DNA of 64,000 nt, from the NCBI GenBank assembly GCA_945865295.1, contig CAMBDE010000001.1, positions 23,572-87,571 of the forward strand, read 5' to 3'. Positions 5,500 to 49,036 of the stretch are shown one piece after another (the first letter of the stretch is position 1; each line of letters begins with the position of its first letter). Source of the DNA: Chitinophaga pinensis (GTDB taxonomy: Bacteria; Bacteroidota; Bacteroidia; Chitinophagales; Chitinophagaceae). The notes under the pieces were generated by a model, which saw nothing but the letters and a program-made list of their open reading frames with translations, was not told the origin of the DNA and did not search any database. Position numbers and translations under genes: made by a program.

Positions 5500-7965
5500 A
5501 TGCAGGTTTTAAAATTTGGAGGAAGTTCAGTAGGTAAACCAGATGCCATCACAAAAGTGATTGCAATTGTAAAAAAGCTTGTACAAGCCAAGCCTGCTAT
5601 TGTAGTGGTGTCGGCGATGAGTGGTGTAACGGATCAGTTGATTTTACTTGCACAGAGTGCTTCACAGGGAAATGAAGCCTATAAGACAATCATTCAAAAT
5701 TTAGAACAAAAACATTTAGATGCCGTACGTGCACTGTTGCCAATACAACAACAATCAGGTACATTGAGCATGGTCAAACAATTGATCAACGAAATTGAAT
5801 CCAATTGCGAAGGTTTATTTATGCTTAGAGAATTGACTATGCGCATGCAGGATCGTTTAATTAGTTATGGAGAAATTTTATCTTCAAAAATTATTGCTGC
5901 AGCTTTTGAGGCTGAGGGCGTCGATCAGGTTTGGGTGGATTCAAGGGCATTGATTAAAACCAATAGTAAATATTTTAGTGCAGTAGTAGATAAAGCATTA
6001 ACGAATCAAACCATTCAAGCTTATTTTGTATCATCATCTAATCAACATGCATTGTATATCGCACCTGGCTTTATTGCATCAGATGCAGAAGGTAATACGA
6101 CCACATTAGGAAGAGGTGGATCAGATTATACAGGAGCAATTTATGCCGCAGCATTAAAAGCATCGGTTTTAGAAATTTGGACGGACGTCAGTGGTATGAT
6201 GACTGCAGATCCAAGAATGGTGCAAAATGCAAAAGAGATTCCAAAAATTTCTTACCAAGAAGCTATGGAGTTATCGCATTTTGGTGCTAAAATCATTTAT
6301 CCGCCAACGATTCAACCAGTGATGTACGAAAATATTCCTGTGCGAATCAAAAATACTTTTGAGCCGGAGCATCCAGGCACTTTGATTGAAAACGAATCAC
6401 CTAAAGATGATAATTTTATTCGTGGTATCTCTAGCATCAAAGACATTTGCTTATTAAGCTTAGAGGGCGCGGGTATGGTTGGTATTCCAGGCTTTTCAAA
6501 AAGATTGTTTGACGCCCTGGCGAAAAATAAAATTAATGTTATTTTAATTACGCAGAGTTCTTCGGAGCATTCTATCTGCGTTGGTGTGAATGTACAGGAT
6601 ACACATTTAGCAAAAATTGCTGTGGATGCAGAGTTTGAACAGGAGATTAATACACAAGTGGTAGAGCCATTAATTATAGAAAAGGATTTATCTATAATTG
6701 CATTGGTGGGAGAGCAAATGCGAAACCATCCAGGTGTCAGTGGTAAAATGTTTGGAGTGCTGGGACGTAATGGGATCAATGTGCGCGCGATCGCACAGGG
6801 GTCATCAGAAAAAAACATAACGGCAGTGATTGCATCACAAGATGTACGTAAGGCCATCAATGTATTGCATGAAGAATTTTTTGAAACATCTTATAAGCAA
6901 GTTAATGTGTATGTGGCTGGTGCAGGGAATGTAGGGGGCAAGTTAATAGAACAAATTAAAAAACAGGTACCTTATTTGCAATCTACATTAAGACTACAAA
7001 TTAAAATTGTTGGCATTGCCAATAGTAAAAAACAATTGATCAATTCAGAAGGTATAGATTTAAGTAATTGGAGAGCGCAATTGAGTGCTGCACCCAACGG
7101 TACCATCACAGATTATGTAGCTGCAATCCTAGATAATAATTTACGTAACTCAATTTTTGTAGATGTTACTGCCCATGCGACTGTTGCAGACACTTATGCG
7201 CAATTATTGAGCAAGGCAATATCGGTGGTGGCTTGTAATAAAATTGCATGTTCATCTCCTTATGTTCATTATGCTAAATTAAAAACATTAGCAAGAACTT
7301 ATAGTGCAGCCTTTCTTTTTGAAACCAATGTTGGTGCAAGTTTACCCATCATTGGCACATTAAATGATTTAATTCGTAGTGGAGATAAAGTCAATAAAAT
7401 AGAAGCGGTATTGTCGGGCACATTGAATTTTGTATTTAACAATTATGATGGTACAACATCTTTTGCAAAGGTTGTAAAGCAAGCACAGGATGAAGGTTAT
7501 ACAGAGCCAGACCCTAGATTGGATTTAGGTGGAACAGACGTGATGCGAAAAGTGATGATCTTGGCGCGTGAAGCGGGACATCCATTAGAAATTGAAGACA
7601 TAGCAAACGAATCATTCTTACCAGCAGCATGCTTTAACGGATCAGTTGCAGATTTCTATATAGAAATGGAAAAGCAAGAAGCACATTTTAAAAAATTATA
7701 TGATGCAGCCGAAGCGGCAGCATGTAAATTAAAATTTGTAGCAAAGTTCGAAAGAGATGCAAATGGACAAGTTGCAGCAAAAGTGGGATTGCGACATATT
7801 CAGCCAAGTTCAGATTTTTATCATTTATATGGGAAGGACAATTTAGTCTTATTCTATTCTGATCGATATCCTGAATTACCATTGGTGATTAAAGGCGCAG
7901 GCGCAGGTGCGGATGTAACAGCATCGGGTGTATTTGCAGATATTATTAGAGCAGCAAGGGTATAG
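5500..7965 (+). CDS. thrA: Bifunctional aspartate kinase / homoserine dehydrogenase
   Basis: N-terminal KFGGSSVGKPDAI kinase motif, ACT repeats (RNGINVRAIAQGSSEKNI), C-terminal HSD (LSGTLNFVFNNYDG, EGYTEPDPRLDLGGTDVMRK). Confidence 0.95.
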   Translation: MQVLKFGGSSVGKPDAITKVIAIVKKLVQAKPAIVVVSAMSGVTDQLILLAQSASQGNEAYKTIIQNLEQKHLDAVRALLPIQQQSGTLSMVKQLINEIESNCEGLFMLRELTMRMQDRLISYGEILSSKIIAAAFEAEGVDQVWVDSRALIKTNSKYFSAVVDKALTNQTIQAYFVSSSNQHALYIAPGFIASDAEGNTTTLGRGGSDYTGAIYAAALKASVLEIWTDVSGMMTADPRMVQNAKEIPKISYQEAMELSHFGAKIIYPPTIQPVMYENIPVRIKNTFEPEHPGTLIENESPKDDNFIRGISSIKDICLLSLEGAGMVGIPGFSKRLFDALAKNKINVILITQSSSEHSICVGVNVQDTHLAKIAVDAEFEQEINTQVVEPLIIEKDLSIIALVGEQMRNHPGVSGKMFGVLGRNGINVRAIAQGSSEKNITAVIASQDVRKAINVLHEEFFETSYKQVNVYVAGAGNVGGKLIEQIKKQVPYLQSTLRLQIKIVGIANSKKQLINSEGIDLSNWRAQLSAAPNGTITDYVAAILDNNLRNSIFVDVTAHATVADTYAQLLSKAISVVACNKIACSSPYVHYAKLKTLARTYSAAFLFETNVGASLPIIGTLNDLIRSGDKVNKIEAVLSGTLNFVFNNYDGTTSFAKVVKQAQDEGYTEPDPRLDLGGTDVMRKVMILAREAGHPLEIEDIANESFLPAACFNGSVADFYIEMEKQEAHFKKLYDAAEAAACKLKFVAKFERDANGQVAAKVGLRHIQPSSDFYHLYGKDNLVLFYSDRYPELPLVIKGAGAGADVTASGVFADIIRAARV

Positions 7966-7987
7966 CATTTTTAAAAAAAGGTATACA

Positions 7988-9007
7988 ATGTTTGAAATCA
8001 ATCAATGGATAAAAATAAAGGCTCCGGCCACTGTAGCCAATATGGTGTGCGGTTTTGATATATTGGGTTTTGCCGTAAACAATCCTTATGATGAAATGGA
8101 AATGCGAAGAGTAGAAAGTAGTATAAGCACTTCCACTGAAACTGCTGCAAGTTCTATTGCTGCAGCGATTAAGATTATTAATATCGATGATTATAATTTA
8201 CCAACCGATCCCGAAAAGAATGTTGCTGGTGTGGCCTTGATCGCATTGATTGAAGCCTACGAAGAACAAGTGCAATTAGGTCATCCAAAAGCAACTATAC
8301 CCATTGGACAACTAGCTTTTGAAGTTAAAATTAATAAATTAATCAAACCCGGTTCTGGTGTTGGATCCAGTGCAGCAAGTTCTGCAGGAGCGGTAGTAGG
8401 GGCAAATTATTTATTAGGGGACCTTTTTTCAAAAGACGATTTGGTTAGGTTTGCAATGCATGGAGAAAAATTGGCATCTGGTGTAAAACATGCAGACAAT
8501 ATTGCACCATGTATATTTGGTGGCGTGACCTTGGTTAGAAGTATTTTTCCGCTAGAAGTGATTGCGCTTCCCTCGCCTATTTTACATGTAACTATTGTAC
8601 ATCCACAAATAGAAGTGAAGACCTCGGATGCAAGAAGTATCTTAAAACAAAATATACAATTAAAAGACGCGATTAAGCAATGGGGGAACATAGCGGCCTT
8701 GGTAGCAGGTTTGATGAAAGAAGATTATGATTTAATTGGTAGATCCTTGGAAGATGTAATTATTGAACCAGTTAGGTCTATTTTAATTCCAGGATTTGAT
8801 GAACTGAAGTTAGCTTGTAAAGCAGCTGGTGCATTGGGAGGCGGCATATCAGGATCAGGCCCATCCATCTTTTTTTTAAGTAAGGAACAATCCACCGCTT
8901 TAGCAGTAGAGCAAGAAATGAAAAAATTATATACCCGTATAGGTTTACCGCATCATACCTATGTGACTTCAATTAATGCTGCGGGTGTTGAAGTAAATCC
9001 ATCCTAA
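7988..9007 (+). CDS. thrB: Homoserine kinase
   Basis: GHMP kinase motif PGSGVGSSAASSAGA and C-terminal GGGISGSGPSIF; start MFEINQW at 7988 rather than the ORF start at 7928, which overlaps thrA. Confidence 0.93.
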   Translation: MFEINQWIKIKAPATVANMVCGFDILGFAVNNPYDEMEMRRVESSISTSTETAASSIAAAIKIINIDDYNLPTDPEKNVAGVALIALIEAYEEQVQLGHPKATIPIGQLAFEVKINKLIKPGSGVGSSAASSAGAVVGANYLLGDLFSKDDLVRFAMHGEKLASGVKHADNIAPCIFGGVTLVRSIFPLEVIALPSPILHVTIVHPQIEVKTSDARSILKQNIQLKDAIKQWGNIAALVAGLMKEDYDLIGRSLEDVIIEPVRSILIPGFDELKLACKAAGALGGGISGSGPSIFFLSKEQSTALAVEQEMKKLYTRIGLPHHTYVTSINAAGVEVNPS

Positions 9008-10359
9008 TGCAATATTATAGTTTAGGAAAACAATCACCGAATGTGGCTTTTAAAACTGCAGCAATAACTGGACAAGCGCCAGATAAGGGATTGTATTTTC
9101 CAACTTCGATACCGCAGTTGACTCCTGAACAAATAGAAAGATTCAAAACCTTGGATAAAGCGAGTTTAGCATTCGAAGTGATGCGTCCCTATATTGGAGG
9201 CACAATAGACGATGTAAGCTTGCAAAAAATATGTAAAGAGACCATTGATTTTGATTTTCCTTTAGTACCTATCACAAAAAATATCCAATCACTTGAATTA
9301 TTTCATGGACCTACTCTAGCATTTAAGGATGTAGGTGCAAGATTCATGAGTAGGTGTTTGGGCTATTTTGCAAATGCAGAAAAAAAAAGTAGTTACGATA
9401 CAACGAAACTAGCAAGTGATTTAACAAGCTTACAAAATAGCAATACCATACTCGTAGCTACCTCTGGAGATACAGGTGGTGCAGTGGCCAATGGTTTTTT
9501 AGGTGTAGAAGGTGTACAGGTCATTATTTTGTATCCAAAAGGCAAAGTGAGTCTAATACAGGAATTACAATTGACTACCTGCGGACAAAATATTACTGCC
9601 TTAGAAGTTGACGGAAGTTTTGACGATTGCCAGGCGATCGTAAAAGAAGCTTTTATGGATGTGGACTTAAATGCAACTTTTCACTTAACTTCTGCTAATT
9701 CAATTAATGTAGCTAGGTGGTTGCCTCAGCAATTGTATTATTTTTTTTCATGGCAACAATGGGTGGCACAATATGGAGATAATACACCTATGCACATCGT
9801 AGTGCCTAGTGGCAACTTTGGAAATATTTGTGCAGGCATGATAGCAAAAGCAAGCGGCTTGCCATTGGGGCATTTGGTAGCAGCATGCAATGCCAATAAT
9901 GTGGTAACAAGGTATTTGAAAACCGGAAATTACGAAGTGAAAAAATCGGTAGAGACTATTTCAAATGCGATGGATGTAGGCAATCCAAGTAATTTTGTGC
10001 GTATCCTTGAAATCATGCAACATAATTTTGATCAATTAAAAAATGGCTTGAGTAGTTATAGCTATGACGATGAAGCCACTAAATCAGCCATCACAAGGGT
10101 TTACAATGATTATGGCTATATCTTAGATCCACACGGTGCAGTTGCATTTTTAGCAGCAGAAGCCTTGATTCAAGAAAAAGGATATGCCGTTATTTTAGAA
10201 ACAGCACATCCTGTAAAATTTCCCGAAGTAGTTGAAGCGGCTATTGGAAAAAAATTAAATATTCCTGCATCTGTACAATACTTATTGGATAAACCTAAGC
10301 AATCCAAACCACTTGAAGCGAATTACGCATCGTTTAAAAATTGGATGTTAGGTCAATAA
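9007..10359 (+). CDS. thrC: Threonine synthase
   Basis: LFHGPTLAFKDVGARFMSR, ATSGDTGGAVANGF; overlaps the thrB stop. Confidence 0.95.
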   Translation: MQYYSLGKQSPNVAFKTAAITGQAPDKGLYFPTSIPQLTPEQIERFKTLDKASLAFEVMRPYIGGTIDDVSLQKICKETIDFDFPLVPITKNIQSLELFHGPTLAFKDVGARFMSRCLGYFANAEKKSSYDTTKLASDLTSLQNSNTILVATSGDTGGAVANGFLGVEGVQVIILYPKGKVSLIQELQLTTCGQNITALEVDGSFDDCQAIVKEAFMDVDLNATFHLTSANSINVARWLPQQLYYFFSWQQWVAQYGDNTPMHIVVPSGNFGNICAGMIAKASGLPLGHLVAACNANNVVTRYLKTGNYEVKKSVETISNAMDVGNPSNFVRILEIMQHNFDQLKNGLSSYSYDDEATKSAITRVYNDYGYILDPHGAVAFLAAEALIQEKGYAVILETAHPVKFPEVVEAAIGKKLNIPASVQYLLDKPKQSKPLEANYASFKNWMLGQ

Positions 10360-43690: not shown

Positions 43691-44620
43691 ATGAAAATAG
43701 CAGTAATAGGCACAGGATACGTTGGTTTAGTAACAGGAACTTGTTTCGCAGAAACAGGAAACAAAGTGACTTGTGTGGACATCGATAAATCAAAAGTTGA
43801 GAAATTAAGTGGCGGTCAAATCACGATTTACGAACCAGGCTTAGAGAAAATCTTTTTAAGAAATATCAAAGAGGAGCGTTTAAGATTTACAACGCAGTTG
43901 GAAGAAGTGGTGGAAGAAGCAGAGATCATTTTTTTAGCATTACCAACTCCTCCCGGGGCGGATGGTAGTGCGGATTTAAAATATGTGTTGGGTGTGGCGG
44001 ATTATTTAGGAAAGATTTTAAAAGGGTACAAAGTTATTGTTAACAAGAGCACGGTGCCAGTTGGTACAGCGGATAAAGTAAGTGCTGCGATTGCAAATAA
44101 TTATAGTGGTGAATTTGATGTAGTGAGTAACCCTGAGTTTTTAAGAGAGGGTGTGGCGGTGGATGATTTCATGAAACCAGATAGAGTGGTGGTGGGTACA
44201 AAATCAGAAAGAGCTAAAAAATTAATGAGTGACTTATACGCACCATTTGTGAGACAGGGTAATCCTGTGGCCATTGCAGATTTAGCGCGTAAGATGATTC
44301 GTTTATATGGCTTGATTCCAAACATTGATGTAAACATCACTTACAGCGGTTTACGCCCAGGTGAAAAACTATATGAGGAATTATTAAACGACGCAGAAAA
44401 TAGCACACAGACCTACCACGAAAAGATTTTAATTGCTCAAGTACGTGAAGTGTCTTTTGAATTGGTGAAACAAAACACTTTAGAATTGGAGACCATTTTA
44501 AGCACCACCAACGACGAAATGTTATTGGTTGCTAAAATGAAAGAGCTCGTTCCAGAATACATCAGTAACAATAGTATCTATCAGCAATTGGATACCAAGG
44601 TGATTTCGATTTCGAATTAA
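43691..44620 (+). CDS. Chimeric ORF: UDP-glucose 6-dehydrogenase N-terminal domain fused to the C-terminus of a CapD/FlaA1-type sugar-nucleotide dehydratase
   Basis: Residues 1 to about 190 are Ugd-like (MKIAVIGTGYVGLVTGTCFAETG...VNKSTVPVGTADKV...SNPEFLREGVAVDDFMKPDRVVVG). Residues from about 191 are CapD-like (VAIADLARKMIRLYG...YSGLRPGEKLYEELLNDAENSTQTYHEKILIAQVRE...LVPEYISNNS). Confidence 0.88.
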   Translation: MKIAVIGTGYVGLVTGTCFAETGNKVTCVDIDKSKVEKLSGGQITIYEPGLEKIFLRNIKEERLRFTTQLEEVVEEAEIIFLALPTPPGADGSADLKYVLGVADYLGKILKGYKVIVNKSTVPVGTADKVSAAIANNYSGEFDVVSNPEFLREGVAVDDFMKPDRVVVGTKSERAKKLMSDLYAPFVRQGNPVAIADLARKMIRLYGLIPNIDVNITYSGLRPGEKLYEELLNDAENSTQTYHEKILIAQVREVSFELVKQNTLELETILSTTNDEMLLVAKMKELVPEYISNNSIYQQLDTKVISISN

Positions 44621-46446: not shown

Positions 46447-46480
46447 TAAAAAAGGTCTCGAAAATTCGGGGCCTTTTTTA
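46447..46480. terminator. Bidirectional terminator between convergent genes
   Basis: aaaaaaggtctcgaaaattcggggcctttttta; stem flanked by A- and T-tracts. Confidence 0.75.
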
Positions 46481-47443
46481 TTGCACTAATATTTTTTCTA
46501 TCGTTGGTGCAAAATGTTGATGTTCTAATACATGAATTTTTTCTGCAACTGTTGTTGGTGTATCGCTAGCATCAACAGCACATCTTGCTTGAAAAATAAT
46601 ATCGCCTTCATCATAATGCGCATCTACCCAATGAATCGTAATACCTGTTTCTTTTTCTCCAGCAGCAACCACTGCTTCGTGCACGCGTAATCCATACATA
46701 CCCTTGCCGCCATAATTAGGTAACAATGCAGGATGAATATTTACAATACCTCGTGCAGTGTTTACTTTTCCATTCACCACACTAGCATCAATTTTCATCC
46801 CTGGTTGGTACGCATGCACCAACACCTCGGGTACTTTCCATAAAAAGCCAGCAAGTACTATAAAATGAATATCTGCATTGTGTAAGCTTTCTACATAGCC
46901 TGTGTTTGCAAATTCTTCTTTATTGATCATTAAAGTGGGGATGCCTTTGGATTTTGCAATTTCTAATACCCCAGCGCCCGGAACATTGCATACAATTAAT
47001 GAGATTTTAACGGGGGTGGACTTGTTTTCAAAGTATTCGATGATCTTTTTAGCATTGGATCCTGCCCCTGAGGCGAAAATGGCCACATGTATCGGGTTAT
47101 TGGACCCTGAATGACCAGATCCCAAATTTTCAGATCCCATCGTCGTAGCCATGTTCGAAGTCCCGCCGCTCAATCTACCCCACATCCTCCCTAAATAACC
47201 CTTAAAAAAGGTAAATTGCCCAGTTGCAAAACTGACCAAAATCACCGAAAAAGGCCATAAAATGGTCAATAATAGGGGATAAATGAGCCAATATGCTGCA
47301 TTTTTCTCCAAAAACACCAAATTTAGGATTTGCTTATTTAGGTACCCGCTCAAGCTTCCTCCCAAGGCAAATGTGGTCATGATTAACCAAAATTGTACCT
47401 GGCCAACGCCCCACTTTTGCTGTAATTTATTAATACTTTTCAT
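46478..47443 (-). CDS. purN: Fusion of N-terminal DUF6787-like membrane domain with phosphoribosylglycinamide formyltransferase
   Basis: N-term KLQQKWGVGQVQFWLIMTTFALGGSLSGYLNKQIL...LLLTILWPFSVILVSFATGQFTFFKGYLGRMWGRL (two hydrophobic helices). C-term PurN: IHVAIFASGAGSNAKKIIEYF, VLAGFLWKVPE, NIHPALLPNYGGKGMYG, GITIHWVDAHYDEGDIIFQ. Confidence 0.85.
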   Translation of the reverse strand: MKSINKLQQKWGVGQVQFWLIMTTFALGGSLSGYLNKQILNLVFLEKNAAYWLIYPLLLTILWPFSVILVSFATGQFTFFKGYLGRMWGRLSGGTSNMATTMGSENLGSGHSGSNNPIHVAIFASGAGSNAKKIIEYFENKSTPVKISLIVCNVPGAGVLEIAKSKGIPTLMINKEEFANTGYVESLHNADIHFIVLAGFLWKVPEVLVHAYQPGMKIDASVVNGKVNTARGIVNIHPALLPNYGGKGMYGLRVHEAVVAAGEKETGITIHWVDAHYDEGDIIFQARCAVDASDTPTTVAEKIHVLEHQHFAPTIEKILVQ

Positions 47444-47782
47444 AATATAATCTATCTTAACTGCGAAACTCTACCCCTCAAATCCTACAATCCTCCCTCA
47501 AACCTTTAAATCTCATCCTCAAACCCCAAAATTTCCTCAAATTCAAGGCCCCAAAGGTCCTCTTTTTTTCGAATTTCCTCCACAAGATTTTATAAAATTT
47601 ATAGCCATAAGTTGGATGCTTACAAATTTATGACATTCGTCACCTAAAATCCTCCCACACGATTGAAACTCAATTAGTAAAAAGAAAAAAAAACTTGCAA
47701 TAAACGAGCTTTTTAATGCGTTTCTTAGTTAATTTTGCGTCCGTTAAAGGATATTTTTCCACACTTGACACTGTTCGTGTAT

Positions 47783-49036
47783 ATGACAACTTTAAGAAAC
47801 CTAGCTAAGATCGTTACGATCTTCTTATTTATCACCTTTAGTGCTGCTATAGGTAATCAACTAAATGCTCAAGACGGTAAAGCACTTTTCTCTGCGAATT
47901 GTGCCTCATGTCACGCAGTAAATAAAAAGCTAACTGGTCCTGCTTTAGCTGGCGTGGAAGATCGTTGGCCTGATAAGCAAAACTTGTATTCATGGATTAA
48001 AAACTCTGCTGCATTTTTGAAAACAGGCGACCCTTATGCGACGAATTTGTACAACGAGTACAACAAAGTGGCGATGAATAATTTTCCTGGTTTATCTGAT
48101 GCCGACATTGATGCCATCTTAGCTTATATCAAAACTGTTCCTGCTCCAGGCGCAGCGCCAGCAGGCGGTGCAGCTGTAGGGGCTCCTGCTCCTGAATCAG
48201 ATAACACTTTAGTGTTTGGAATTTTAAGTTTGGTGTTAGCAGTGCTTGCAATTATTTTATTGCAAGTGAATAACAACTTAAAAAAATTAGCAGACGACAA
48301 ATTAGGTGTTGTTCCTCAAGTTCCAGTTCCCTTTTATCGCAATAAAAGATACATCGCTATCACAGCCATTTTGTTGTTTGTGTTAGGGGGTTATTATACC
48401 ACAGTGGGTGCGATGAACTTAGGTCGTTCTAAAGATTATCAACCAGAACAACCTATTTACTATTCTCATAAAGTGCACGCTGGTGTAAACCAAATTAACT
48501 GTCAATATTGTCATAGTGGTACTTACCAAGGCAAGCAAGCCACTTTACCTAGTGTGAATGTTTGTATGAACTGTCATACTGCGATCAACGAGTACAAAGG
48601 CGATCCTTTAGTTAGAGAGAATGGGGAGATTGTAGATGGTACTGCTGAGATTAAAAAATTATACAAATACGCTGGATTTACAGAAGGTCAACCTTGGGAT
48701 GCAACTAAAGCACAACCAATTGAGTGGATTCGTATCCACAACTTACCTGACCACGTTTACTTTAACCACGCGCAACACGTGAACGCTGGACAAGTTGCTT
48801 GTCAACAATGTCATGGTGAAATTCAGAACATGGGTGAAGTAAAACAGTTCTCTGACTTAAGTATGGGATGGTGTGTGAACTGTCACAGAGAAACAAAAGT
48901 GCAATTTAAAGACAATGGTTTCTATAGCATCTACGAGAAATACCACGAAGATATTCGTACTGGAAAAATCGATAGCACTAAAGGCATCACTGTAGAGAAA
49001 ATTGGTGGTACTGAGTGTCAAAAATGTCACTACTAA
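47783..49036 (+). CDS. ActA-like multiheme cytochrome c of Alternative Complex III
   Basis: Six CXXCH motifs: CASCH, CQYCH, CMNCH, CQQCH, CVNCH, CQKCH; followed by ActB-like gene. Start at ATG 47783 (MTTLRNLAK). Confidence 0.92.
   Translation: MTTLRNLAKIVTIFLFITFSAAIGNQLNAQDGKALFSANCASCHAVNKKLTGPALAGVEDRWPDKQNLYSWIKNSAAFLKTGDPYATNLYNEYNKVAMNNFPGLSDADIDAILAYIKTVPAPGAAPAGGAAVGAPAPESDNTLVFGILSLVLAVLAIILLQVNNNLKKLADDKLGVVPQVPVPFYRNKRYIAITAILLFVLGGYYTTVGAMNLGRSKDYQPEQPIYYSHKVHAGVNQINCQYCHSGTYQGKQATLPSVNVCMNCHTAINEYKGDPLVRENGEIVDGTAEIKKLYKYAGFTEGQPWDATKAQPIEWIRIHNLPDHVYFNHAQHVNAGQVACQQCHGEIQNMGEVKQFSDLSMGWCVNCHRETKVQFKDNGFYSIYEKYHEDIRTGKIDSTKGITVEKIGGTECQKCHY

Follow-up and report, generated by a model that had tools for sequence, protein, structure and literature searches.

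PurN, the GAR transformylase of purine synthesis, is a textbook soluble enzyme. In animals the corresponding activity belongs to the trifunctional GARS-AIRS-GART protein, where GART sits C-terminally in a longer chain. DUF6787 (PF20584) is a family of small membrane proteins from Bacteroidia, and a literature search covering this family, PurN fusions and membrane-bound GAR transformylase found nothing relevant. Here we describe a gene that joins DUF6787 to PurN, located in a 64,000-nucleotide stretch of a Chitinophaga pinensis genome assembly (GCA_945865295.1; hereafter the window). The combination is a real, conserved and uncharacterised domain architecture, and it is present in many freshwater and soil Chitinophagaceae.

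Results

A single open frame encodes DUF6787 and PurN

A first-pass annotation, made from the sequence alone, had proposed that a DUF6787-like domain is fused to PurN in one open reading frame (ORF), and the ORF coordinates, Pfam matches and orthologues all bear this out (Table 1); its text of the linker sequence was also correct. The frame opens with ATG and continues for 321 residues without an internal stop. Pfam PF20584 matches residues 20–92 at 33.2 bits, above its gathering cut-off of 27.5, and Formyl_trans_N (PF00551) matches C-terminally to it at 118 bits. The NCBIfam equivalog for PurN, TIGR00639, covers residues 119–319 at 116.9 bits, a score under the cut-off of 150.1 that probably reflects a lineage insertion and the divergence of Bacteroidota; it was nevertheless the top-scoring of all equivalogs, and the best PDB sequence matches were all PurN.

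No second PurN or second DUF6787 was found in the window's genome (2.01 Mb, 101 contigs). Since purD is present there and no PurT scored above the cut-off, the fused gene is probably the sole GAR transformylase. Separately, three genomes (95–98% complete, 1.6–2.1 Mb) were observed to carry purD with PurN not found and no PurT over the cut-off, so that PurN is either missing from these draft assemblies or marks a gap in the pathway.

Table 1. Positions of the fused gene, its parts and its divergent neighbour in the window
Feature	Position	Strand	Basis or remark
Fused gene DUF6787-PurN, 321 aa	46478..47443	-	ORF, family matches, orthologues
DUF6787 N-terminal domain, residues 1–92	47168..47443	-	Pfam PF20584, AlphaFold2 model, hydropathy, charge, dN/dS
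Low-complexity linker, residues 93–117	47093..47167	-	Disordered, hypervariable, frame always kept
In-frame internal ATG, Met98	47150..47152	-	Not conserved; probably not a start
PurN (GAR transformylase) domain, residues 118–321	46481..47092	-	Pfam, NCBIfam, PDB sequence and fold matches
Lineage-specific PurN insertion, residues about 214–230	46754..46804	-	Alignment; pLDDT < 50 at 219–227
Catalytic Asn235 and His237 (NIHP motif)	46733..46741	-	Invariant in 46 aligned fused proteins
Catalytic Asp278	46610..46612	-	Invariant in 46 aligned fused proteins
Multihaem cytochrome c, first gene of act operon, divergent	47735..49036	+	Pfam; present in 61/61 long-flank loci

Predicted membrane hairpin and intact PurN active site

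An AlphaFold2 model computed from 46 fused homologues (mean pLDDT 87) places four helices in the N-terminal domain, at residues 2–11, 15–42, 49–74 and 77–91; the two middle helices form a hairpin and the last is a tail helix. The second hairpin helix is clearly hydrophobic (Kyte-Doolittle 2.09 in the window protein), and the first is weakly so (best 19-residue mean 1.17 in the window protein; family mean 1.67). Because the hairpin's outer flanks are both more positive in net charge than its loop in each of the 46 aligned proteins, both ends are predicted to lie inside (N-in/C-in), and PurN would accordingly be predicted at the cytoplasmic face of the inner membrane. The membrane-tethered form suggested in the first pass is the natural reading, and the predicted helical hairpin and charge pattern agree with it; the weak hydrophobicity of the first helix in the window protein counts against it.

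The C-terminal part of the model adopts the PurN fold, with B. halodurans PurN (3p9x) as the best Foldseek match (E = 2e-16) and a TM score, by target, of 0.85 for the modelled domain against solved PurN structures. The three catalytic residues in Table 1, whose roles are known from E. coli PurN, are intact. The insertion, of about 17 residues, lies directly ahead of the strand that bears the NIHP motif and varies in length within the clade.

Distribution of the fusion

In an even draw of the family, DUF6787 and PurN share one frame in 61 of 249 Chitinophagaceae genomes, representing 31 of 104 genera. A fusion was counted when both families fell in a common open frame of at least 283 residues, and candidates were read by hand; 55 of the 61 appeared as a single match and 6 were recovered by frame length and adjoining coordinates. 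PurN is present in 240 genomes of this draw, and the Pfam model recognised DUF6787 in 120, a figure that possibly misses divergent copies. The fusion is open in at least 13 near relatives of the window's genome, in independent metagenome-assembled genomes (MAGs) at 85–93% identity and in RefSeq genomes of the cultured strains Pseudoflavitalea rhizosphaerae, Sediminibacterium ginsengisoli DSM 22335, Niastella caeni, Agriterribacter humi and Flavihumibacter fluminis. Looking for the same fusion in other genomes, as the first-pass annotation had advised, thus revealed it across the family, and recurrence in so many independent genomes makes it neither a chance event nor an assembly error. An even draw of the class outside Chitinophagaceae yielded DUF6787 in 68 genomes, always stand-alone and in no frame above 194 residues, which suggests that the fusion is confined to Chitinophagaceae.

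A free linker between two constrained domains

We examined 108 loci, comprising 89 fused, 14 split and 5 without DUF6787, a sample that favours fused genes. Across the 89 fused relatives the linker takes 37 different lengths from 12 to 90 residues, and the frame is never broken; very short linkers exist as well (GSAP in L052, GGKK in L061). In the AlphaFold2 model linker residues 94–112 are disordered (pLDDT < 50). Eleven pairs of fused genes from the window clade gave dN/dS of 0.08–0.21 for DUF6787 and 0.05–0.12 for PurN, against roughly 0.35–1.2 for the linker, the last values being rough since the linker is short. Low dN/dS in both domains beside a free linker argues that both halves are selected and that the linker serves as a tether; separate products from separate starts would not require the linker frame to be kept. 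The long linkers of five loci (L060, L103, L105, L111 and L112) were seen to be made of repeated peptides (SAISxQxSA, SNLKPQTSN, GPWSMV) resembling translated dispersed intergenic repeats absorbed into an open frame.

Locus, intermediates and direction of change

Wherever long flanks were available (61 of 61 loci), the gene lies near, and divergent from, genes for a multihaem cytochrome c and an ActB-like iron-sulphur protein; these act genes belong to alternative complex III. Within Chitinophagaceae, DUF6787 and purN occur in every state: separated, adjacent, overlapping, one stop codon apart and fused. In four loci (L145–L148) at least one opposite-strand gene separates purN from DUF6787, which follows act, and six (L012, L014, L018, L054, L063 and L071) hold DUF6787 and purN in the same frame, one stop apart. 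At L108 and L027/L154, purN stands beside act without DUF6787, and its retention there without an adjacent DUF6787 (L108 and L027, the latter from genome G010) shows that an anchor is dispensable.

In a gene tree built from 101 loci, every member of the window clade carries the fusion (29/29, support 1.0), and the five loci of its sister group are split. Parsimony on this tree requires 9 changes with a fused root, compared with a mean of 17 for shuffles, and 19 fusions if fission is forbidden. It does not separate ancestral fusion with later fissions from repeated fusion, because the deep nodes have weak support and the sampling of loci is tilted towards fused genes.

Outside Chitinophagaceae the neighbours of DUF6787 are diverse, and none of 30 loci has purN within about 1.5 kb or act beside it. 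We considered the Rosetta-stone argument, by which the fusion would mark DUF6787 as a purine protein, and found it unsupported, as purN is not nearby at any of these 30 loci; in our view the fusion should not be read as evidence for a role of DUF6787 in purine synthesis.

Close relatives share a strongly conserved intergenic stretch (47535–47735) that lies between the act cytochrome and the fused gene; it is conserved more than the 100 bases adjoining the start codon and probably contains divergent promoters. A scan of the 5' region against Rfam for a riboswitch gave a chance match only, with no fitting family, and the leader holds no tandem repeats. Elsewhere in the window, a chimeric ORF at 43691–44620 (+) begins as the NAD-binding domain of a UDP-glucose dehydrogenase (PF03721, residues 1–181) and ends as the C-terminal part of a polysaccharide-biosynthesis epimerase (PF02719, profile positions 229–292). 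The close relative L035 has an intact 640-residue epimerase at the same place (7605–9527), and the chimera reflects either a large deletion in the window's genome or a misjoin in its assembly.

Discussion

We put a probability of about 0.7 on the gene encoding a single-chain, membrane-anchored GAR transformylase that performs ordinary PurN catalysis on a tether and arose from gene adjacency. DUF6787 and purN would have been immediate neighbours, transcribed divergently from the act operon, until their frames merged through loss of the stop/start junction. Presumably made as one translation product, the protein would span the inner membrane with its DUF6787 hairpin, both ends of which would face inward, and the flexible linker would keep the whole PurN domain on the cytoplasmic side. 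The tethered enzyme, if active, would catalyse the ordinary reaction of 10-formyl-THF and GAR to FGAR. We regard anchoring as tolerated, or as mildly useful through fixed 1:1 expression.

Two alternatives concern the number of products. Protease cleavage of the disordered linker could occur, in which case the fused chain would be made and then cut, DUF6787 and soluble PurN would act apart and the fusion would be a neutral by-product of adjacency. The hypervariability of the linker, the interchange of split and fused states in the parsimony reconstruction and the lack of a link between DUF6787 and purN outside the family would all suit this account, but the linkers of fused relatives contain no visible conserved cleavage motif and certain linkers are very short; we consider it rather unlikely. 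Alternatively, full-length protein and a soluble PurN could both be made, the latter from an internal start such as the ATG at 47152, as first suggested. That codon is indeed in frame, and 38 of the 89 fused relatives have some linker ATG, but Met98 is common only to the closest kin (L033 and L034) and is missing from L003 and L035, also among the nearest relatives. Moreover, the linker lacks an ATG altogether in 51 of the 89, and in only 5 does an ATG fall within 5 codons of the PurN core, the place at which purN begins in split loci. A soluble product from an internal start is unsupported by these counts and very unlikely.

The first-pass annotation had also raised the possibility of two genes whose stop was lost. 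This holds in the evolutionary sense, as loss or bypass of a stop between neighbouring genes, and fails as a sequencing or assembly error. Relatives with two ORFs do exist, and in the close kin L012, L014 and L018 a single TAA divides two ORFs of one frame, but such loci represent evolutionary intermediates or revertants and give no evidence of error. The open fusion recurs in independent assemblies and cultured strains, which rules out a sequencing error, and the frame is kept over all 37 linker lengths; the chance that an error deleted the stop is negligible. A different proposal is that tethering itself was selected, with DUF6787 placing PurN beside a membrane partner (such as the respiratory complex encoded next to it, or further purine enzymes) for channelling or regulation. 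Maintenance of the fusion over 31 sampled genera and whole clades speaks for it, as does the position divergent from the act operon in 61 of 61 loci, but repeated splits, repeated losses of DUF6787 beside a retained purN and the absence of any DUF6787-purN or DUF6787-act link outside Chitinophagaceae make it highly improbable. A broader version, in which PurN is recruited by DUF6787 to an assembly in the membrane, possibly close to the divergently encoded alternative complex III, and the first formyl transfer of purine synthesis is membrane-docked, widespread and under selection in Chitinophagaceae, seems to us doubtful and quite unlikely.

The single-chain, membrane-anchored enzyme that we favour has consequences beyond this locus. 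As the fusion is family-wide and was repeatedly gained or lost, it supplies natural pairs of soluble and tethered PurN for testing membrane placement of a purine enzyme, and it gives a first handle on DUF6787. The loci of Chitinophagaceae also record every step of gene fusion by stop-codon loss.

Compared with known systems, the enzyme half resembles PurN (PF00551, TIGR00639) in fold, in its active-site Asn, His and Asp and in the length of its catalytic domain, and its GGKGMYG motif also occurs in split relatives; it differs from PurN in the added N-terminal membrane domain and linker and in its score under the TIGR00639 cut-off. The other half shares with stand-alone DUF6787 a full-length domain and the GQFxFF motif after the second helix, but stand-alone members are about 90–130 residues long and have other neighbours, whereas the window copy is fused to an enzyme. 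As in animal GARS-AIRS-GART, the transformylase forms the C-terminal part of a longer chain; the partners of GART in that protein are other soluble purine enzymes, whereas in the window protein the partner is a membrane domain.
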